The notes beneath the pieces were generated by a model. It saw only the letters and a list, made by a program, of their open reading frames with translations, was not told the DNA's origin and searched no databases. A DNA stretch of 11,309 nucleotides from Oscillospiraceae bacterium (lineage in GTDB: Bacteria; Bacillota_A; Clostridia; Oscillospirales; Oscillospiraceae): assembly GCA_017470325.1 (NCBI GenBank), contig JAFUES010000026.1, positions 1-11,309 on the forward strand, written 5' to 3'. Every line of letters begins with the position of its first letter. Position 1 is the stretch's first letter. Shown in pieces: positions 1 to 11,309 of the stretch. The translations under genes were made by a program, and so were the position numbers.

Positions 1-3000
1 AGTCGCCGTGACTGTCGTCACTGTTGCGTCGTCGCTATCTGTTACGTCCTTATTGCTCGGATCCTTGCCGGTCGCAGTTGCCGTGTTGTCGATCTTCCCG
101 GCGTCCACGTTGGCCTGGGTCACCGTGTAGGTGTAGCTGATGGTCTTTGTACCGGCGGGAGCCAGGTCGAACGCAGCTTCGTTCAGCGTCACCAGCGTGT
201 CGCTCATGGCGATGTCGCTCACCGTCACGTTGCCAGTGTTCGTCACGACTACCGTGTAGGTGATCTCGTCGCCGACCTTCACGTTGCTTGTCGGGCTCGC
301 GGTCTTCTCCACCGTCAGGGCAGGCGCCGCCGTGACTGTCGTCACTGTTGCGCTCGCGCTCCGGCTGAAATCATCGATCGCCGCAGTAACTGTATTGGTG
401 AAGCTGCCCTCCACGATATCCGCCTCTACGATGGTATAGGTGGCCGTTGTCGTCACCGTCTCGCCGGCGGCAACATTCTCAAACACAGACTGCGCCAGCG
501 TCACGTTGGCGATTTCCGTCAGCGTAATGGTCTTTGCTTCATCAAAGATATTCGTCGCAGTGACAGCGAAGGTCACCACATCGCCGGTCTTATATTTTTT
601 GCCGGCGGTGGTGTCGCTGTCCGCCTTAGTGACGACCAGATCCGCTTCAACGTCATCCTTCGTCACCACCAGGGTGCCCAATTGCTCGCTGATGGAATAG
701 TTATTCTTATTGGTCGTGCCCCAGTCGATGTCGTAGGTGTTGCTGCTGCTGCCCACGTAGGTCTGGGAGCCGGTGGCCGTGACCGTGGCGGTCTCGCCCG
801 CGACCAGGCCGGTGATCCCCACCGTGGCGACCGTCAGCGGGGAGCCGTCATAGGTCTTCTCGCCGCCGCCGGTAGTGATGGTGACTTGTGCCTTGGTGAT
901 CTCCTGGTAACCGTCCGTCACCTGGAACGAAACTTCAAAGTTTTCGTTGGTATTTGAGAACTGGCTGGATTCCAGTCCCATATAGTTCTTACCGTAGTCG
1001 GTTCTGGCCGCCGCAGCGGTCCCGCTGAAGCCGATATCCGACGCCGTGTACAGCGTGGTGTTGATGCCGCCGATCTGGATGCTGTCGATCACATAGCCGG
1101 TCACAGTCTGGGGGTTGCCGTTATAGGGCTTGCTGCTGGTATTGCCGTGCAGCGTCACGACGACGGCAGCCTTGTTGACCTGCAGGGTGCCCAGCTGCTC
1201 GCTGATGGAATAGTTATTCTTATTGGTCGTGCCCCAGTCGATGTCGTAGGTGTTGCTGCTGCTGCCCACGTCCGTCTGGGAGCCGGTGGCCGTGACCGTG
1301 GCGGTCTCGCCATTGACCAGGCCGGTGATCGACGCCGTGCTGTTGGTCAGCGCGGTGCCGTCATAGGTCTTCTCGCCGCCGCCGGTGGTGATGGTGACCG
1401 TCACCTTCTCCACTGTCAGGGTGCCGTCCACGGTCCGCACGTTGGTGAAGAACTCGGTCTTGTCTTCGCCGTCCGCGTTCTTGATCACATAGCCTTCATC
1501 CACCACGTTGGCGCTCTCGCCCGCGTCGGTCTGGCTGCCGCTGGCGGTGGCCTCCACCGTGAAGCCTGCAGGCAGGCCGCTTGCGGTCACTGTGGCATTG
1601 GTCAGCGCGGTGCCGTCGTATGTCTTGCTGTCGCTGGCGGCGGTCAGGACGATCTCCGTGTCGTTGTCGGTGACGATCAGCGTACCCAGCTGCTCCGTCA
1701 CGCTGTAGTTGGAGTCCTTGGCCGTGCCCCAGTCGATGCTGTAGGTGTTGCTGCTGCTGCCGACCTCCGTCTGGGAGCCGGTGGCCGTGACCGTGGCGGT
1801 CTCGCCATCGACCAGGCCGGTGATCGACGCCGTGCTGTTGGTCAGCGGAGTGCCGTCATAGGCCTTCTCGCCGCCGCCGGTGGTGATGGTGACCGGCTTG
1901 GGCAGGATCTGCAGGCGGCCGGCACGGACATAGAGGCTGACGCTGTAGTTGGGATCCGCAGGCAGCTCCGCCTGGGTATATCCGATGGTGTAGGTCTCGT
2001 CGCAGACGTCTGTCTTCGCCAGTCCATAACGATGGAATCCAGCCGCGGCGTCATCAAAAGCAGCCTCCGACAATACCGCGTTCCAAATGGTATCCCGATA
2101 GGTCGTCTTATAGCCATCGTGGGAGATCATGAGGTAATCATCGATCTCCTTGCTGCCATTGGTAAAGCCGGCCTTATACGCTGTGCCGTTATAGATGTTG
2201 CCGACCCAGCGGTCCGGCTCAATGCGGACGGTGACGTTGATCTTCGTCACTTCCAGTGTGCCGCTGATGTAGCGGACGCTGTAATAGTTGTCGCTCGCGC
2301 CGCCGATCACGGCAGCGCTCGGCCTCACGGTGGCGATGCCCGCATTGATGCGGCCATCGTTGGTGTCGTTGTCCGTGTTGGTATAATTCAGCGTGACCGC
2401 GCTGAGGGTATGGCCCTCCAGCAGGCCGTCATAAGTTACCTGCTGCGCTAAGGTACTGCCCAGGGTGAGGGCGGTCGTGTCATACTGCTTGGTCTTGCTG
2501 ACCGCAGTGACCGTCAGCTTCTTCTGGTAGAACAGGGTAAAGGTCAGACCGTCTTCGGTAACCGCCTGGGTGATCTTATAGTCGGTGCCCGCAGCAGTCC
2601 CGTTATAAGCGGTCCCCTCCACAGCCTTGTTCAGTTCCCATCCGGCGATGGGGGTACGGCTGAGGGTAAAGGTCTTGCCGACCTTGAGGATCTGGGTATC
2701 CGCGGTCATGCCGGGGATGGCGTTGCCGTCCATATCCACAAAGTTGACGGTGACTGTGGCGTTCTTGAAGCTGGAATAGTAGAAGGTCAGAACGTTCTCA
2801 GCCGGGTTCGCGGTCAGGACCAGGGTCTTCTCCACCGCGTCGGCGTAGAACTCCAGATTTTCCAGCTCGGGATGGGCGGCAAGGAGCGTCTCGTAATCCA
2901 CGGCCGCCGCGGACTCGATCCGGGAGGCGGTATCGCCGGGAACATTCGACACGGTCTTCTCCGCCGCCACGGCGATATCGCCGGGGTACTCCGCCGGATC

Positions 3001-6000
3001 CAGGATGTACCGGACGGTGTAGCTGGTGGTTTCCACCTTGGCGCTGTAGACGAAGGTGAGCACGTTCTCACTGTCGGTCTCGCTCAGGCTCAGGGTCTGG
3101 CTGCTGGTGTTGGGCCGATAACCGGCCACGGCAATGGCATACTCGGTGATGTTCTGCTCCACCACATAATTGGGATTGGTGACCGTTTTGTCCGAGGCTA
3201 CGGGATTGCCTGCTTCATCCACATATTTTACGGTGTAGGTCAGGTTCTTCCGGATCCAGTGGGCGTAAACGGTGGTGTCCGCCGTGATCGGGTTGTTCCA
3301 ATCGTAGAGGGTGTCGCCGTCGGCGGTGGTGTACCAGCCGTCAAAGGTGTAACCCGTCTTGGTGGGCGTACCGGGGCTGGCGACCTTCTTGTACTTTTCT
3401 ACGGTCTGATCGTCATAGAGTTTGGTGGAGGTCGCTTCTCCGTCCACAAAGCTCACGGTGTAGCTGGGAGCCACCCACTTGGCGTAGAGATGCAGGTGGT
3501 AGCCGGGCATGGTGGAGAATGTGTATGGTGTGCCAAGACCGACGTCCGCGTACCAGCCGCCCCAGCTGTAGTCGTTGTCCACCCCCGCGGGCCGTGTGGG
3601 CTGGGTGTTATAGCCGGTGATGTCTGCTTCAAAGAATACGGTTCCATCAACCGTGCCGTTACCGTTGTAAGGATTGTGCTTGATGATATCGTACTGGGCC
3701 CGGTCGTAGTAGAAGCGGTAGGTGTATATCGTGCTTGTTACCGGATAGTAACCAGCTTCTTCATGGCATTCAGCAGTATAGCTATGGGTATTGTATACGT
3801 GATTGCCGTTGCGTTTAGTCTTTTTGGTGATTTCATAAGTATGACCATTGACCTCAAAAGTATCGCCGACATTATAACTACCATAGCCACTTCCCGGCCC
3901 ATTGAAGGTGTAAGTATCATCATATGCATCTCTCCACACCTGCTCTGTCACAGTGGTATTGCCGGAGCCGGTATAACCCTGGGGCGCCGATCCATCGCCG
4001 TTGTGCTTGGTATAGCCGCTGATTTCTTTGGGATCCAAGCCACTTGTATTCAAGCCGATCTGGGTATACTCATCGGCTATAGCCCAGGTGCCGTCAGGTT
4101 GCTGCAACCAGTATTCCGCGTTTCGGTTCTGCGTATTATTCGACCACCTGGCCGTCCAGGTCACCTGGTGGTTATTGTTGGCACCTTCAAAGTACTCATA
4201 GTCAATCGCGCCAAGCTTTGTGATTTGTCCCCAGCTATGATAGTTGTCGCCCCAACCGTTAAAGTACTGTTTGTCGTTTCCGTTTCTCGTATCATAGATT
4301 TCCGTAGACGAAGCGGGCCACACGGATGACATATCCTGTCCCAGAACAATATTCTCGATTGAATAACTGGTCCCAGTGTAGTCCTGTCCGCCGATCGTGA
4401 TCTTACCGTAGCTGTTGTTGATATTGAAAACAAATGTATACCGGATCAGGCTGTAGTAGACCTTCAGCGTGGCGCTGCCGTCGGCCTGGATGACCACCGC
4501 AGAGTCCTCGCCCGTGCCGGCGGCGGTGGCGGTGCCGTTGATGCTGCCGGCTCCGGTGAGCTTCTCATAACCGTTAAGGGTATAGGGCTGGGCGGAGGCC
4601 GCGTATACAGTCGTTCCCACCTGGGCACGGCCTGTGCGGCTGTACTCGTACACATAGGAGGTCGTTCCGGTGGCGTTGTTATACACTTCCTTCATGTAGA
4701 GGATGGTGTAATCCACCGTATCGCCTTCCCACTTGGCATAGAGGGTGGTGTTGCCCTCGATGGTGACGGTGCTGCCCGCCTGCCGGGTCAGACCCTCGTC
4801 CAGATACCAGCCCCGGAAGGTATAGCCTGTGCGGGTAGGCACCTCGGTGGACACAGCCACGTCGCTGCCGTAGGCGTAGGTGCCGCCGGCCACGTAGCTT
4901 CCGCCGGTGGTGTCATAGGAGAGGGTATAGTTCTTCCGGGTGTAGTAGACGTTCAGCTCCTGCTTGGGCTGGCCGTTCAAGCCGGAGGTTTCGATGATGG
5001 CGCCCTCGGCCAGCTCCATGTTGGCATAATCATAGGACTTGACCGTGGGGGTCACATAGCTGTTCAGCACGCCCTCCACGTCCACTGTCCGCTCGATCTC
5101 GGTGTAGCCGTCTCCGTCCAGATCCTCGAGCAGGTAGACGAAGTCGTATATGGCCGTGTAGGGCACGTACTTGAACCGGACAGTGGCTTCTCTGTTCGTG
5201 TCAAAATGAGCCGCGGTCACCGTGATCGTGGGGGTCTCGGGGTAGTAGAGGGGAGCGCCGGGGACCTCGTTGGGATCCGTCCGGGTGCTGACAGGCGCAG
5301 TGATGGGATAGGGCAGTTCGCCGGCCTCCACCTGCAGCAGGTCGGTATTGAAGATCACTTCGCCGTTATTCCCCAAATAATAATACTCGGCGGTGATGTT
5401 ATAGACGTCGATCGAGCGGAACACGGCCTCCACGATCAGGTTCTCGGTGATGACCGTATCGGCGTCCACTTCGGTGTCCGTGCCCTGGATCACCCACTTC
5501 TCAAAAATCTTGCCGGCTACGAAGGGATCCTGAGGCATGGCGCCGATGGCCTCGCCCGAATTGCGGAAATACTGGGAGAGGACCTCCGCCTCTTCTCCGC
5601 CTTTATCGATCACGAAGCGAACGAAGAGCATATCGGTGAAGCTCGCCTCGAGCGTCAAGTCAGAAGTGACGGATTCGCCGCCCACATACTCGGTCTCGCC
5701 CACGTACCAGCCCTGGAACTCTCTGCCTTCGATCACAGGCTCGGTGGGCAGCGTCAGAGTATCGTTTATATAATAGGTATCCGTGGCGTAAGTGTCCACG
5801 CCCACCTTAAAGGTGACGGTGAACACGTTCTGGTCGTACTCGGCCCAGACGCTGGTGTCCTCCGAGACGGCGACGCTGTTGTCAAAATCGCCGCCGGCAT
5901 AGACCCACCTGCCGCTGTAGCCTTCCTTCTCGGGGACAGCGGGAATGTCATTCAGGCAGTAGCTGGTATCCACATCGACGGTCTTGGCGTCGACCTGGGT

Positions 6001-8225
6001 CGTCTTATCCTCCTGATAGAAGGTGACCGTATAGGTGACCTTGTTATATTTGGGAACAACGGTCATATCCTCGGTCACGACCGTCTCGGCGGTGACCACG
6101 CCGCCGGTGACCTGGGTTTCATTGCCCTGGCCGCCGCTTATGATCTCGCCGATGGCCCATGCGGCATGATAGTCCTCGCGGGGGATCGCGTCGGGCAGCA
6201 GGTCGCCGATGGCGGTGTTGTCTTCCACGGTCAGCGTGGTAAGCACTTCCGCGTCACGGTTATAGAAGGTGACGGTCCATACCTTGGTGAGCTTCGCCGT
6301 CAGGGTCAGATTGCCGGTCGGGATCTCCGTGCCGTCGTAGAGGGTTTCGCCGTTGTACCAGCCGTCGAAGCGGTAGCCCTCAACGGAAAACTCCGGCAGC
6401 GTACCGATGGCCTCCCCCTCGGTTACGGTGATGGCAGCGGGGGCAGTCCCCTGCGCCGCCGCAAAAGAGACGGTATAGGTCGCAAGCTCGCGGAAGTTGG
6501 CGGTGAACGCCATGTCTGTGCTGTCGGCGGTGACCTCCGGCGCGAAGTTTGCCTCCGTGCTTACTTCATTATCACCCGCATCGGTCCAGTTTACAAACAC
6601 GTAGCCTTCCTCAGCCTCGGCGGCAGAGCCCTGGGCAGCGGGCTCGTCGACGGTGAGATCCACGGTCTCGCTCTCCGGGCTCACCGTGCCGCCTTCCCCG
6701 GCAGCGTAGGTGATGGTGAGCTCCGTCGCTGCCGCTTTGGCGGCGAGCGCGGGTACCTTCTTGGCGGCAAGCCCAAATTTTGCGCTTATCGCGGCGAAGT
6801 TCGCGGTATAAACCGCGTCAACGGAATCGCTGTCCAGCTCCGGGACAAGCACCGGGTCGGTGCTGATCTCGTTGCCCTCGGCATCGGTCCAGTTTACAAA
6901 CACATAGCCTTCCGCAGGCACAGCCTCCGCACCTGCGACCGTATAGTCTTCGGAGAAGAGGTCCACAGTCTCCCGGTCAAGGGAAACCGTGCCGTTCTCT
7001 CCCGCAATATAAGTGATCGTGACAAGGTCCGGCGCCTTTTCAAACTCGGCCACGAACCGCAGGTCATTGCTGGCCATGCTGAGCTTGGGAACAAAGGCCG
7101 CCTCCTCCGAGGCTACGCCGCCGCCATAGTACAGCCAGCGCCGGAACGTATAGCCCTCGTCGGGGATCGCCGTCGCGCCCTGGGCGGTGATCACGTCCGC
7201 TCTCACATTGACGCGCTCTTTGTCAAGGGAAACAGTGCCGTGCTCGGCCGCGCCGTAGCGGATCGTAATATACCGTCCGTTCGGATCCTCCCGGGGCTCT
7301 TCAGGCTTCTGGGTCTCGCCGGGCTCCTGAGTCTCGCCGGGCTCCTGAGTCTCGCCGGGCTCCTGAGTCTCGCCGGGCTCCCGGGTCTCGCCGGGCTCCT
7401 GGGTCTCGCCGGGCTCCTGGGTCTCGCCGGGCTCCCGGGTCTCGCCGGGCTCCTGGGTCTCGCCGGGCTCCTGGGTCTCGCCGGGCTCCTGGTCAACAGC
7501 AAAGTTCGCCCTGAAGGTCATGCTGTCGCTTGCCGCGCTCACGCCCGGCACAAAACGGAGTTCTCCGGAAACGATCGCCCCGGCATCCGTCGTCCAGTAC
7601 ACGAAGTGATATCCTTCGTTTGCTTCCGCCGTCGCCCCGAGGGCAGCAGCATTCGGCGCCTGAACATTGATCTGTTCAGCCGCTTCCAGGACTTTATAAT
7701 TACCCGCAGCAGAGACCGTGCCGCCTTCACCGGCTATGTAGCGGATGGTGATCCACTTTTCCTCGGTCTTGGGCTTCTCGGTCTTAGGCTCCTCGGCCTT
7801 GGGCTCCTTGGCTTTGGGCTCCTCGGCCTTGGGCTCCTCGGCCTTGGGTTCCTCGGCCTTGGGTTCTTCGGCCTTGGGCTCCTCGGCCTTGGGTTCCTCG
7901 GCCTTGGGCTCCTCAGCCTTGGGCTCCTCAGCCTTGGGTTCCTCGGCTTTGGGTTCCTCGGCTTTGGGTTCCTCGGCCTTGGGTTCCTCGGCCTTGGGCT
8001 CTTCGGCTTTAGGCTCTTCGGCCTTTGGCTGCTGCGCCGCTTCCGCGACGGCTTGTTCTGCCGCTGCCGGTTCCGCCGCAGCCTTCTCGGGCTCCGCTTT
8101 GGCCTCTATGGCAGCAGGGGGCACGCCCTCGTCCGCCGCGGCAAACGCGGAGGCCGGGAACATGCTCAGGCACATGATCAGCGCCAGCAGAAACGAGCCG
8201 ATCCTTTTTGAGAATCTTTTTTCAT
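1..8225 (-). CDS. Giant multi-domain secreted/surface protein (partial at C-terminus; apparent 1-nt frameshift at start)
   Basis: One frame is open from an upstream stop at 8262-8260 to the left edge, giving at least 2,742 residues. Numbering assumes the frame is restored at the start. Residues 1-29 are a signal peptide (basic KKRFSKR start, hydrophobic core, cleavage after ASAFA). KAEEP repeats follow (~68-147), then a divergent InlB-type module (~157-245), EPGETQ repeats (247-306), and three more such modules (~308-580) with the GEGGTVS...EGYVFVNWTDA pattern. Classical InlB B-repeats lie between ~600 and ~1660, with motifs such as GYTFRGWY and TTLYAKW. MucBP-like modules span ~1666-1880, seven YDG/MBG-type modules ~1904-2519, and two DUF11/DUF7507-like modules ~2521-2742. 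The family is adhesin-like and extracellular; ligand unknown. A sortase motif or other anchor would lie outside the window. The start ATG at 8225 has an excellent ribosome site but is one base out of frame with the signal peptide (six A instead of seven). The next in-frame ATG, at 8175, would lose most of the signal peptide. The domain calls come from motif reading, not a profile search. Confidence 0.88.
1183..1400 (-). repeat. YDG/MBG-type module, copy B of a near-identical DNA repeat
   Basis: Copy B (1183-1400) is very similar in DNA to copy A (670-887), offset 513 nt, and more distantly to copy C (~1681-1895), offset 1008 nt from A. Each encodes a module beginning VTITTGGGEK(T/A)YDG and closing with a Tyr-Ser/Asn-Val/Ile-x-EQLGTL strand. 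Less similar YDG/MBG-like modules sit between them (~905-1170 with KPYNG, ~1400-1670 with KTYDGTAL). Others lie upstream in the protein (~1915-2250, ~2250-2515 with KQYDTTAL). The phase-preserving spacing means recombination between copies would delete or add whole modules. Confidence 0.85.
6490..7760 (-). repeat. Four homologous ~85-90-residue divergent InlB-type modules
   Basis: Modules lie at ~7490-7760, ~7036-7305, ~6790-7035 and ~6490-6735. Each opens with an [IL]TI[RT]Y-x-A-(A/G)-E-x-GTVS strand and continues with EGY-x-F-x-x-W and a closing (F/Y)-x-A-(N/E)-F strand. They resemble the divergent InlB B-repeat (Flg_new_2-like) type, by motif only. The third and fourth share a near-identical DNA stretch (gtccagtttacaaacac at ~6583 and ~6887). 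The first two are separated by the EPGETQ array. The third ends in an Ala/Lys-rich spacer (~6735-6800). Confidence 0.7.
7309..7488 (-). repeat. (EPGET[Q/R])10 18-nt tandem repeat
   Basis: Ten uninterrupted 18-nt units encode Glu-Pro-Gly-Glu-Thr-Gln. Units three and six carry Arg instead of Gln through a single-base change. The DNA units are nearly identical, which points to recent expansion or homogenisation. The array links the first divergent InlB-type module to the second and is followed by a degenerate KPEEPREDP tail. It is probably a flexible linker that can vary in length between strains. Confidence 0.93.
7781..8025 (-). repeat. (KAEEP)n 15-nt tandem repeat stalk
   Basis: About 16 consecutive 15-nt units encode Lys-Ala-Glu-Glu-Pro, one of them KAKEP, followed by variant KTEKP and KTEEK units. 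The array lies directly after an Ala/Glu/Pro-rich segment that follows the signal peptide, at residues ~68-147. Synonymous changes among units (GCC/GCT/GAA/GAG choices) show the array is not freshly expanded. Its charged, proline-spaced character suggests an extended stalk. The 15-nt period preserves frame when copy number changes. Confidence 0.93.
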
Positions 8226-8678: not shown

Positions 8679-8801
8679 GGAAGAGCAGTCACCGCGGCAG
8701 CGCATGGCGAAGAAAGGCCCCGCCAGGCGCCGCTTTTATGACGAAAAATGAGGGCCTCATGTTCCTTGTCCATGAAAGGATCCTTTTTCCGGGAGGCAGT
8801 C

Positions 8802-9425
8802 ATGCTGAAACTGTACAGCAGAAGATCCGTACAAAGGCGCCTTGCGCGTCTGGCCCATCCGATCGATCTGGCGGCAGGGCGCAGCGGTGTGCCCGCCGCC
8901 TGCATCCGGGCCGTGCTCATGCAGGAGATGGGCGATATCGACCTGATGGATCCCGTGGCGGATCTGGCCGTGCGCTTTTACTGGCTGCGCTGGCGGCTGC
9001 GGGGCGGCAGGACGCCGCGGCTCCTGCGGGGCGCCCTGGGCAAAAAAGACAGCTCCACCGGCTGTGGGCAGATCTTCGCCTATGTGGCCATCCGGGCGCT
9101 GAACTTTGCCGCGGGCCGGGGCCTGCCCGCCTATGACTGGTTGGGGCTCTCCGAGGAGCGGCCCCTGCGGCCGGATCGGGACGAGGACCTGCAGTGGATG
9201 TGGTACCGGCTCCACCGGGATCCGGAGGCGAACATCCTGCTCTCCGCGCTGAATCTGCTCTCCGCGGCGGAGGAAATGACCGGGCGCCGCGATTTCAAAT
9301 CCTTCTCCCCCGAGCAGCTGCAGCTGACCTTCACCCGCTACAACGCCAATGTGCGGCACGTCACCGCCTACGGCCAAAAGGTCTTTGCGCTCTACCTGCA
9401 GGAAAAAACTCCAGAAAATGTATAA
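8802..9425 (+). CDS. Lysozyme-like (transglycosylase-fold) protein without signal peptide
   Basis: This encodes 207 residues. I chose the ATG at 8802 because GGGAGG (8791-8796) lies 5 nt before it; the frame also extends to an ATG at 8748, but that one lacks a ribosome site. The lysozyme-superfamily signature is an early Glu in VLMQEMGDID (Glu42), a central STGCGQI (residues 85-91) resembling the G-x-x-QI strand of SLT/GH23 enzymes, and a late RYNAN (179-183) resembling their Tyr-Asn loop. Such folds cleave peptidoglycan glycan strands. No signal peptide or membrane segment is visible: the N-terminus is Arg-rich (KLYSRRSVQRRLARL), so the protein may be cytoplasmic, leave by another route, or have lost activity. 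It is rich in Arg, Leu and Ala. The next promoter starts ~20 nt after its stop, so it seems monocistronic. The fold call is from motif recognition and moderate; a conserved protein of unknown function is the alternative. Confidence 0.55.
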   Translation: MLKLYSRRSVQRRLARLAHPIDLAAGRSGVPAACIRAVLMQEMGDIDLMDPVADLAVRFYWLRWRLRGGRTPRLLRGALGKKDSSTGCGQIFAYVAIRALNFAAGRGLPAYDWLGLSEERPLRPDRDEDLQWMWYRLHRDPEANILLSALNLLSAAEEMTGRRDFKSFSPEQLQLTFTRYNANVRHVTAYGQKVFALYLQEKTPENV

Positions 9426-9442
9426 TTTTTTTCATTCCCTAC

Positions 9443-9471
9443 TTTAAAGCTGAAGATCTTTTTGATATAAT
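9443..9471 (+). promoter_or_regulatory. Sigma-A promoter of the ribozyme-nagB-glmM unit
   Basis: TTTAAA (9443-9448), a 17-nt spacer and a perfect TATAAT (9466-9471) lie in an AT-rich stretch just after the lysozyme-like gene. Transcription would start near 9478. No convincing terminator separates it from the upstream gene: a T7 run at 9426-9432 lacks a GC-rich stem. Some read-through is therefore possible. Confidence 0.75.
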
Positions 9472-9484
9472 ATATAGTTAGTCA

Positions 9485-9498
9485 GGTGTTCGCACACC
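9485..9498 (+). other. 5'-terminal hairpin of the nagB transcript
   Basis: GGUGU (9485-9489) and ACACC (9494-9498) form a perfect 5-bp stem with a UCGC loop a few bases from the predicted transcript start. Such 5' hairpins can protect an mRNA end. The 50 nt between it and the ribozyme cleavage site show no clear fold. Confidence 0.45.
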
Positions 9499-9550
9499 CC
9501 AAGATAAAGGATGGTCTCCACGCCAAGGAGGGACAAGCGGAGGCTGTTTT

Positions 9551-9690
9551 AGCGCCAGGCCCGTAACAGGGTGACGAGGGATGGCAGTTATCGAAAGACT
9601 CGGCGGATGCTGCCACGGCCGGCGCGGGTCGAAAGGGAGAAAGCAAAAAGCAGAATCAAAACTGTAACAGAGGTTCTCCCGCCGTGCGTT
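9551..9690 (+). ncRNA. glmS ribozyme: glmS glucosamine-6-phosphate-activated self-cleaving ribozyme
   Basis: The conserved core is present in order: AGCGCCAG (9551-9558), GACGAGG (9573-9579), UUAUCGA (9588-9594), UCGGCGGAU (9600-9608). Cleavage is expected between A9551 and G9552. Visible helices are P1 9559-9562/9569-9572 (only 4 bp, one G-U, loop GUAACA); P2 9582-9587/9610-9615 (UGGCAG/CUGCCA); CGCC 9553-9556 with GGCG 9602-9605; P3 9616-9620/9627-9631; pseudoknot P3.1 9622-9626 with 9683-9687; and P4 9635-9641/9674-9680 (7 bp). In this class GlcN6P is the catalytic coenzyme, and the cut mRNA is degraded, giving feedback repression. It is almost always found before glmS. Here the next genes are nagB and glmM. 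The ribozyme identity is near certain; its activity is inferred. Confidence 0.95.
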
Positions 9691-9692
9691 TT

Positions 9693-9755
9693 CCGGACAT
9701 AACAAGCCTGATCCTGTGGAGGATGGCTGCGGCCGCGCGCTGCCGGTCGGTCCGG
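9693..9755 (+). other. Structured segment between ribozyme and nagB
   Basis: CCGGAC (9693-9698) can pair with GUCCGG (9750-9755), enclosing a perfect hairpin AUCCU-GUGG-AGGAU (9711-9724) that GCC/GGC (9706-9708/9725-9727) extends. A GCGGCCGC palindrome lies at 9730-9737. No U-run follows, so it is not an intrinsic terminator. It may be a 3' extension of the ribozyme or a separate control element; I do not recognise it. Confidence 0.4.
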
Positions 9756-9765
9756 GAGTTACTTT

Positions 9766-9819
9766 ATGAAAACAAAACAGGAGTATTTTTATGAGAGTCG
9801 TTATTCAAGAAAACTATGA
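9766..9819 (+). CDS. Possible 17-codon upstream ORF overlapping the nagB start
   Basis: The ATG at 9766 opens a 17-residue frame ([17 protein letters not shown]) that ends at TGA 9817-9819, inside nagB and in another frame. GGGAG (9754-9758) lies 7 nt upstream, a plausible ribosome site. Its translation would cover the nagB ribosome site (9779-9783) and start codon, so it could modulate nagB. A chance ORF is equally possible. Confidence 0.25.
9779..9783 (+). promoter_or_regulatory. Ribosome binding site of nagB
   Basis: AGGAG lies 7 nt before the nagB ATG at 9791, separated by the A/U-only spacer UAUUUUU. This fixes the start, which also matches the N-terminus of known NagB proteins (M-R-x-[IV]). 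Confidence 0.9.
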
Positions 9820-10582
9820 GAAGATGAGTCTTTGGGCCGCCCGTTACATCGCCGCAAAGATCAAGGCTCACAAGGAGGCGCGCCCCTTTGTGCTGGGCCT
9901 TCCCACCGGCTCCTCCCCCATCGGCGTCTATAAGGAGCTGGCCCGGATGAACCAGGCCGGTGAGCTTTCCTTTGCCAATGTGGTCACCTTCAACATGGAC
10001 GAGTACCTGGGCCTGCCCCATGAGCATGATCAGAGCTACTGGTACTTCATGCATGACAATTTCTTTGATCATCTGGTGGACATGAAGCCGGAGAACATCA
10101 ACATCCTCAACGGCATGACCGAGGATCCCGAAGGAGAGTGTGCCCGCTATGAGGAGAAGATCGCCTCCTACGGCGGCATCGACCTGTTCATGGGCGGCAT
10201 AGGCGTGGACGGCCACATTGCCTTCAACGAGCCCTACACCTCCCTCGCCTCCCGTACCGGCGTGCGGAACCTGACCACGGACACCCGCATCGTCAACTCC
10301 CGCTTCTTCGGCAACGATCCCGAGAAGGTGCCCTCCCAGGCGCTCTCCGTGGGCGTCGGCACGGTCACCGATTCCAAGGAGGTCCTGATCCTCATCAACG
10401 GCCACAACAAGGCCCGCGCCCTGGCCGCCACAGTGGAAGGCGGCGTCAGCCAGAAGTGGACCTGCTCCGCGCTGCAGATGCACAACGGCGCCATCATCGC
10501 CTGCGACGAGGACGCCTGCGGCGAGCTGACCGTGGACACCTACAAGTATTTCCTGGATATCGAGAAGAAAGAGAGACTGTAA
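9791..10582 (+). CDS. nagB: Glucosamine-6-phosphate deaminase/isomerase
   Basis: This encodes 263 residues (E. coli NagB has 266), aligning over its whole length. The enzyme interconverts GlcN6P + H2O and Fru6P + NH4+ in the cytoplasm. Landmarks are LGLPTGSSP (35-43), FNMDEYLGL with Asp70 (E. coli Asp72), and [11 protein letters not shown] with Asp140, His142 and Glu147 (Asp141, His143, Glu148). Phosphate-site Arg171 and Lys207 are kept. Of the E. coli GlcNAc6P allosteric-site residues, as I recall them, Arg158 corresponds to Gly157, Lys160 to Arg159 and Ser151 to Thr150, while Tyr254 is kept as Tyr253, so that activation site looks altered. The gene follows a glmS ribozyme and lies 1 nt before glmM; no nagA or sugar transporter is in view. 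This context fits GlcN6P synthesis rather than amino-sugar breakdown, an inference. The protein family itself is certain. Confidence 0.97.
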
Positions 10583-10583
10583 G

Positions 10584-11309
10584 ATGGGCAAATATTTCGG
10601 TACTGACGGCTTCCGCGGTGAAGCCAACAAGGATCTGACCTTTGAGCACGCCATCAAGATCGGCCGCTTCCTGGGCTGGTACTATGGCGCCCGGGTCGGC
10701 AAGAAGGCGAAGGTCGTCATCGGCAAGGACACCCGCCGTTCCAGCTACATGTTTGAGTACGCCCTGTGCACGGGCCTGATGGCCAGCGGCGCCGACGCCT
10801 ATATCATGCACGTCACCACCACCCCCTCCGTCGCCTACATCACCCGCGTGGATGATTTCGACTGCGGCATCATGATCTCCGCCTCCCACAACCCCTACTA
10901 CGACAACGGCATCAAGCTCTTGAACGGCAATGGGGAAAAGATGGACGAGGAGACCATCCTCAAGGTGGAAGACTACATCGACGGCAAGCTGGAGATCCCC
11001 GTCTCCGAGCGGGACGCTATCGGCCGCACCGTGGACTATGTCGCCGGCCGCAACCGCTATATCGGCTTCCTGATTTCCCTGTCAAAGTACAGCTTCAAGG
11101 GCTTGAAGGTGGGCCTGGACGTGGCCAACGGCGCCGCCTGGCAGATCGCCAACGGCGTATTCGAGGCTCTGGGCGCCAAGACCTATGTGATGAACGACCA
11201 CCCCGACGGCTACAACATCAACACCGACTGCGGCAGCACCCACATCGAGCATCTGCAGAAGTTCGTGGTCGACAACGGCCTGGACATCGGCTTTGCCTAT
11301 GACGGCGAC
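10584..11309 (+). CDS. glmM: Phosphoglucosamine mutase, N-terminal 242 residues (runs off the window)
   Basis: GlmM converts GlcN6P to GlcN1P, the step after GlcN6P formation in UDP-GlcNAc and peptidoglycan synthesis, in the cytoplasm. The N-terminus has FGTDGFRG (5-12). The phosphoserine loop ISASHNP puts the catalytic Ser at 101, close to Ser102 of E. coli GlmM. The window stops inside the metal-binding loop, after Asp240-Gly-Asp242 of the expected DGDxDR. The ATG follows the nagB stop by a single base, and its ribosome site must lie in the A/G-rich end of nagB (GAAAGAGAGA). Translation of the two genes is therefore probably coupled, and both should be under ribozyme control. The DGFRG and SASHNP motifs together with a Ser near 100 favour GlmM over other alpha-phosphohexomutases. 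Confidence 0.93.
   Translation, partial: MGKYFGTDGFRGEANKDLTFEHAIKIGRFLGWYYGARVGKKAKVVIGKDTRRSSYMFEYALCTGLMASGADAYIMHVTTTPSVAYITRVDDFDCGIMISASHNPYYDNGIKLLNGNGEKMDEETILKVEDYIDGKLEIPVSERDAIGRTVDYVAGRNRYIGFLISLSKYSFKGLKVGLDVANGAAWQIANGVFEALGAKTYVMNDHPDGYNINTDCGSTHIEHLQKFVVDNGLDIGFAYDGD

Follow-up and report, generated by a model that had tools for sequence, protein, structure and literature searches.

A complete self-cleaving ribozyme of the glmS class lies ahead of nagB, rather than glmS, in the 11,309-nucleotide stretch of DNA analyzed here (the window), and nagB is followed by glmM. The RNA is conserved and the unit recurs in 38 genomes, so that the arrangement is a genuine variant of glmS-ribozyme regulation, both maintained and recurrent. 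In the textbook roles NagB is catabolic and the glmS ribozyme shuts off glmS. The best supported reading of the arrangement, which rests on genomic context and to which we assign a probability of roughly 0.6, is that a functional glmS-class ribozyme feeds back on an operon for UDP-GlcNAc synthesis headed by a NagB that runs in the aminating direction.

Organization of the ribozyme-nagB-glmM unit

The ribozyme is located at 9540-9690 on the forward strand, where cmscan reports a match to RF00234 of 60.5 bits (E 3.3e-12; gathering score 37 bits) that spans the whole model, positions 1-167 of 167; no other Rfam family exceeds its threshold in the window. The initial annotation had described a complete glmS ribozyme about 100 nt upstream of nagB and had proposed a covariance search, and the significant score bears it out, with a gap of 100 nt between the end of the match and nagB. 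The predicted cleavage site, A9551/G9552, agrees with the window sequence and with the motif A/GCGCC, which is identical in all 39 aligned homologues. The transcript was also thought to have its own sigma-A promoter, and a consensus scan finds a sigma-70/sigma-A-type match (TTTAAA, 17 nt, TG-TATAAT) at 9443-9471 on the same strand, with 10 of 12 consensus positions, as a single site against 0.3 expected in shuffled sequences. A search of 9380-9800 turned up no terminator-like site ahead of nagB.

The nagB gene (9791-10582, forward) encodes a 263-residue member of the glucosamine-6-phosphate deaminase/isomerase family (TIGR00502, 375.6 bits against a cut-off of 236.9; PF01182), and the sequence offers it a ribosome-binding site, AGGAG, at 9779-9783, 7 nt before the ATG. 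The initial annotation missed glmM, which begins 1 nt past the nagB stop and continues beyond the end of the window. Its 5' part (10584-11309, forward) is recognized as phosphoglucosamine mutase by TIGR01455 and PF02878/PF02879, scoring 270.9 bits across the 242 residues encoded here; this lies below the TIGR01455 cut-off of 447.55 for the full-length protein because the gene is cut by the window end. The product shares 94% identity with GlmM from L005, a related locus. GlmM commits GlcN6P to UDP-GlcNAc. Because glmM follows nagB by one base, the window unit, in the order promoter, ribozyme, nagB and glmM, is an amino-sugar synthesis operon. Within this window unit the partner gene designated X (see below) is absent.

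The remainder of the window is dominated by a reverse-strand open frame at 1-8175 of at least 2725 aa, which runs off the window and has N-terminal PKAEE and GETQEP repeats. It also carries InlB-type B-repeats (PF18998, PF09479; 3001-8175 scanned) and looks like a large surface protein, and the long forward-strand ORFs within 1-8175 are its antisense. Just upstream of the promoter is a forward open frame of 225 aa (8748-9425) with no NCBIfam or Pfam match.

Conservation of the ribozyme RNA

Thirty-nine nagB-type ribozymes, the window's included, were aligned, with at least four rows whose 3' parts are misaligned left in. The core examined comprises 24 positions (A/GCGCC ... GACGAGG ... UCGA ... 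UCGGCGG), all of which the window ribozyme carries; 23 are invariant in 39/39 and the A of UCGA is present in 38/39. Twenty-eight nested pairs from the Rfam alignment, giving 995 cells, were scored for pairing. Row kinship being not fully controlled, 95.6% of these cells pair, and both-sided changes occur in 17 of the 28 pairs and in 111 cells versus 33 in shuffles; when the partners are slid as a control, pairing falls to 31-53%. The retention of the core together with this covariation speaks against a decaying remnant and for an RNA that is maintained.

Recurrence among close relatives of NagB

When genome contigs were scanned with the NagB of the window, at least 585 confirmed stretches were obtained, of which the best 80 loci (71-95% identity to the window protein) were used; many of their titles name rumen or other gut samples. 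This 80-genome set is uninformative on frequency because it was chosen by NagB similarity. Within it, RF00234 matches are found in 35 of 50 plus 6 of 30 whole genomes, amounting to 42 ribozymes. The tally of downstream genes proposed at the outset gives 38 of the 42 upstream of nagB, on the same strand and within about 2.3 kb.

Gene order in these 38 was judged from tblastn searches for five proteins (NagB, GlmM, gene X, GlmS and a GlmR-like protein) from -2.7 to +4.2 kb of nagB. The first gene behind the ribozyme is nagB in 30, X in 7 and glmM in 1, and glmM is nearby in 30. At one locus nagB is accompanied by X only, at a contig end, at another by the glmR-like gene, and at six by none of the other four sought genes. 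Four of these six (L014, L017, L022 and L029) have 5.8 kb of sequence from the nagB start, of which 4.2 kb was searched, and the other two, L020 (1.5 kb) and L041 (2.9 kb), are on shorter pieces. Since nagB is the sole sought gene behind the ribozyme at these loci, nagB itself can be the target.

The remaining 42 of the best 80 loci have no ribozyme of this kind; glmM is beside nagB in 17 of them and not nearby in 25. No degraded copy was detected before nagB in L001, L002, L003, L021, L037 or L038, which give no RF00234 match at E values up to 5. Four of the 42 ribozymes lie outside nagB units. Three are at glmS, in G060, in G080 and as a second copy in G041 (the genome of L041), which has one ribozyme before nagB and one directly before glmS. 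The fourth, in G079 (L162), stands just past the end of an X-glmM pair, and none of the five sought proteins was found in the 1.5 kb behind it.

One occurrence is in Ruminococcaceae bacterium P7 (L018), the title of which is not marked as a MAG and which we take to be an isolate. Its layout is ribozyme (40.7 bits), nagB, X, glmM, and the genome has one nagB and two full glmS genes and gives no nagA match.

A single origin of the nagB ribozyme appears doubtful: the NagB tree, in which support is poor and the rows were picked by NagB similarity, requires about 13 state changes for the ribozyme, at least 3 of them forced by well supported branches. Three loci with NagB 80-89% identical to that of the window (L036, L051 and L057) stand apart from the Bacillota rows and come from MAGs labelled Spirochaetales and Flexilinea (Chloroflexota), and the GlmM of L051 is 83% identical to that of L005. 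They represent either horizontal spread of the NagB-GlmM pair or a binning error.

Distribution in the class

Frequency was assessed in 391 genomes from the class of genome G018, with stricter filters that may miss some ribozymes. A ribozyme match at E 0.001 is present in 148 of the 391 (147 over the gathering score), for 150 ribozymes in all; downstream DNA was examined for 149 of them (30 + 119 loci) and for G018. The first gene is glmS-like in 143/150, on the ribozyme strand, usually 0.1-0.6 kb and at most about 1.6 kb away, and the premise that glmS leaders account for almost the whole class therefore holds for this sample. The nagB/glmM type accounts for 4/150: nagB is first in L206 and L215, G018 is a third nagB case, and X-glmM follows the ribozyme in L201, with no nagB within 4 kb. 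No NagB, GlmS, GlmM or X was recognized in the DNA available behind the ribozymes of L234, L255 and L265.

In L215 (G217) the match of the ribozyme-headed nagB is limited to residues 1-111. Soon after it begins a frame of 581 aa, transposase-like by eye, and nagB appears interrupted in that assembly. In two other genomes of the sample glmS heads a related order, ribozyme-glmS-X-glmM in L240 and ribozyme-glmS-X in L217. The occurrence of these layouts suggests exchange at the operon head and is not proof of ancestry; the L240 GlmM is only 43% identical to the query, which makes the comparison of layouts loose.

Three of the 143 glmS-like genes are glmS halves, with the ribozyme before a 370-388 aa GlmS-like protein that has the SIS (isomerase) half only: L232 (G307), L243 (G191) and L294 (G237). 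No full-length GlmS was found in G307 or G191, and in G237 the isomerase-half gene is followed in tandem by a second ribozyme with a full-length glmS. The isomerase-half protein is possibly an ammonia-dependent GlcN6P synthase under ribozyme control, and if it uses free ammonia it would constitute a second ribozyme-controlled ammonium route; the E. coli isomerase domain on its own is not known to use ammonia.

glmS in genomes with the ribozyme-nagB unit

GlmS scores over its cut-off in 29 of the 38 ribozyme-nagB genomes, is partial in two (G029, G054), and in seven (G004, G019, G020, G022, G035, G039 and G046) gives short or single-domain matches at most. The universal gene alaS, used as a control, passes in 32/38 (Fisher P 0.57 for glmS versus alaS), including G019, G020, G022, G035, G039 and G046. 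Because the control fares so similarly, these genomes give no indication that glmS has been lost systematically, and a general replacement of glmS by nagB is rejected; it may still have happened in single genomes, the one from which the window comes included. TIGR01173, the bifunctional GlmU, had been tried as a completeness control and proved useless because the genomes mostly are without it (over cut-off in only 4/50), and alaS was used instead.

At 20 glmS loci no ribozyme was found in up to 1.5 kb of upstream DNA (1.1 kb in L118 and 0.46 kb in L119); 18 of these loci belong to the 38 genomes, and the other two to G217 and G339, where ribozyme-nagB is present as well. The glmS genes of the other 11 genomes were covered by the whole-genome RF00234 searches. 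The ribozyme thus sits on the nagB unit, and glmS, where seen, is without its own, save in G041. At three loci (L015, L033 and L061) glmS is encoded on the nagB strand, at some distance behind nagB.

Partner genes

Gene X encodes 218 residues resembling the acetyltransferase (C-terminal) half of GlmU of the archaeal and the alternative bacterial types. It matches positions 213-393 of TIGR03992 and 202-358 of TIGR03991, under the full-length cut-offs because it is a half protein. Together nagB, glmM and X would complete the path from fructose-6-phosphate (F6P) through GlcN6P and GlcN1P to GlcNAc1P. A putative glmR-like gene adjoins the ribozyme-nagB unit in L031 and L033. TIGR00649, which we take to be the RNase J family, is over its cut-off in 36/38 ribozyme-nagB genomes.

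NagB and the direction of its reaction

Equivalents of Asp141, His143 and Glu148, the catalytic residues, are present in the window NagB and in 80/80 of its relatives (best 80 of at least 585). The GlcNAc6P-site list for the E. coli enzyme, in the available text of PMC4281351, comprises Ser151, Arg158, Lys160, Asp141, Glu148 and Tyr254. The last three are kept, and at the positions of Ser151, Arg158 and Lys160 the window protein and 79/80 relatives from the same best 80 of at least 585 have Thr, Gly and Arg; the three solved homologues for which alignments are shown read R-I-K, i.e. with Arg and Lys at the last two sites. By these three residues the window NagB is not of the E. coli GlcNAc6P-activated type, and the changes would fit an enzyme that works without prior activation by GlcNAc6P, as a trait of the whole NagB set. 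Loss of the allosteric site as a mark of ribozyme control is rejected, since the changes are found equally in NagB with and without a ribozyme and do not track it.

NagB is the sole copy over cut-off in 46/50 genomes. Where NagB acts in catabolism, it is nagA that feeds it from GlcNAc. In the 35 ribozyme-nagB genomes examined nagA is over cut-off in 12, with a long match just below in 2 more, and is without a substantial match in 21 (9 with no match at all at E 0.001 and 12 with short matches of at most 34.7 bits), versus alaS below cut-off in 5/35. This corresponds to a Fisher P of 1.5e-4 in an unpaired comparison that treats related genomes as independent. L001-L003, the closest NagB relatives among the matches listed, are without a ribozyme or nearby glmM, and nagA is present in their genomes; for this reason the family to which the window NagB belongs also occurs in settings that look like catabolic ones.

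The deaminating direction of NagB is usually favoured according to the available portions of PMC4281351 and PMC11593775, and the latter gives an equilibrium constant of 0.2 M. With this constant, an assumed 10 mM NH4+ and 1 mM F6P correspond to about 50 uM GlcN6P at equilibrium, and assumed ranges of 5-10 mM ammonium and 0.5-3 mM F6P to 12-150 uM. Known enzymes differ in what they do: as far as the excerpts available describe them, Giardia NagB makes GlcN6P efficiently and ignores GlcNAc6P (PMC4281351), and Akkermansia NagB is unable to make GlcN6P under physiological conditions (PMC5902328). In the genomes considered here the operon partners of nagB and the frequent lack of a nagA match indicate that NagB is probably biosynthetic, a view that rests on genomic context.

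A proposed feedback loop and its alternatives

In the proposed mechanism NagB would run fructose-6-phosphate + NH4+ to GlcN6P, which GlmM would next turn into GlcN1P. Gut ammonia levels are high, and an ammonia-rich gut, the habitat indicated by record titles, may favour amination. Accumulated GlcN6P would be the ribozyme cofactor, upon which the leader would cut itself at A9551/G9552. In Bacillus subtilis glmS, the cleaved mRNA is degraded by RNase J; by analogy the nagB-glmM mRNA would then be degraded in the same way. The result would be a classical feedback loop with NagB in the position of GlmS. In the 29/38 ribozyme-nagB genomes with glmS over cut-off, NagB is not needed as the sole synthase. 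It may instead offer ammonium an inexpensive entry of low affinity, alongside a glutamine-dependent GlmS that is retained, with no ribozyme to itself, by most relatives, a pairing that can be likened to glutamate dehydrogenase beside GS/GOGAT.

The ribozyme could serve mainly glmM and the acetyltransferase, with nagB a passenger or a two-way GlcN6P/F6P buffer near equilibrium. The presence of glmM near 30/38 ribozyme-nagB loci, the X-glmM unit of L201 and the GlmS of 29/38 genomes all lend weight to this, and yet we hold it unlikely: nagB comes first in 30/38 and is the only sought gene at the six loci from L014 to L041 named above, and a passenger deaminase would waste the GlcN6P that its own operon needs.

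More doubtful still is the reading of NagB as a normal deaminase of catabolism, or as an overflow valve, with the ribozyme acting either with its usual OFF sign or in reverse, cleavage stabilizing the mRNA. NagB does fall within the deaminase equivalog, nagA is over cut-off in 12/35 genomes, and the Akkermansia enzyme, in the available part of PMC5902328, deaminates with no amination at physiological conditions. The OFF sign, however, would mean repression by abundant substrate, which is the wrong logic for catabolism, and the operon partners are biosynthetic, while the presence of TIGR00649 in 36/38 genomes argues for the OFF sign.

The preferred reading, of an aminating NagB under feedback, is one half of an either/or put forward by the initial annotation and draws its support from context. 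The other half, a promoter-ribozyme cassette left behind once glmS had been replaced, is not supported and, taken as a remnant now without function, seems very improbable. The layouts of L240 and L217 show an operon in which glmS could have given way to nagB, and 7/38 ribozyme-nagB genomes show no glmS, but a remnant is hard to reconcile with a core kept in 39/39 (one substitution at one position), 95.6% pairing, 111 versus 33 double-changed cells and a glmS still over cut-off in 29/38. Finally, an assembly or binning artefact that joined a glmS leader to nagB, the pitfall against which the initial annotation had warned, is contradicted and can practically be dismissed, since, although nearly all relatives are metagenome-assembled, the unit recurs in 38 genomes in several gene orders, Ruminococcaceae bacterium P7 among them, and in two further class-sample genomes (L206, L215).

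Implications

The maintained ribozyme on nagB-glmM provides regulatory evidence for the direction of an ambiguous enzyme, and it suggests that gut anaerobes have a way of bringing ammonium into peptidoglycan precursors. There is in our estimate an even chance that the glmS ribozyme has, across many rumen and gut Clostridia, been re-deployed onto an ammonium-assimilating NagB acting as GlcN6P synthase, with the glutamine-dependent GlmS left without a ribozyme of its own. If so, the ribozyme marks an ammonia-driven entry into cell-wall amino sugars, a branch akin to glutamate dehydrogenase, and we have met no published account of such a branch. In these bacteria, compounds directed against the glmS ribozyme would act on another gene.

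No published nagB-linked glmS ribozyme was recognized in the literature searched; a ribozyme on nagB is not described in the available portions of PMC10668854, PMC2258182, PMC6154101 and PMC7967978, and an earlier mention in the survey of McCown et al. 2011 is possible. That survey (RNA 17:728) reportedly assigned every glmS ribozyme but two to glmS mRNAs.

Comparison with known systems

The closest known system is the glmS ribozyme-riboswitch of Gram-positive glmS leaders, which shares the core, the 5' leader position and the predicted cleavage site; it differs in that the first gene here is nagB (or X, or glmM) and not glmS. The window NagB shares the TIGR00502 equivalog with the allosteric E. 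coli-type enzyme, and its best solved-structure matches are named glucosamine-6-phosphate deaminase, including 1cd5/1dea/1hor, which we take to be the E. coli enzyme; it departs from that type in the Thr, Gly and Arg at Ser151, Arg158 and Lys160. Giardia lamblia NagB has the same proposed direction, F6P and ammonia to GlcN6P, with no GlcNAc6P activation expected, although Giardia is a eukaryote with mixed oligomers and the available text of PMC4281351 does not mention a ribozyme. Akkermansia muciniphila is, like the probable hosts of many of these loci, a gut bacterium, and its NagB is the only candidate for GlcN6P synthesis. It differs in being without GlmS and in a NagB without physiological GlcN6P synthesis, and a ribozyme is likewise not mentioned in the accessible part of PMC5902328.
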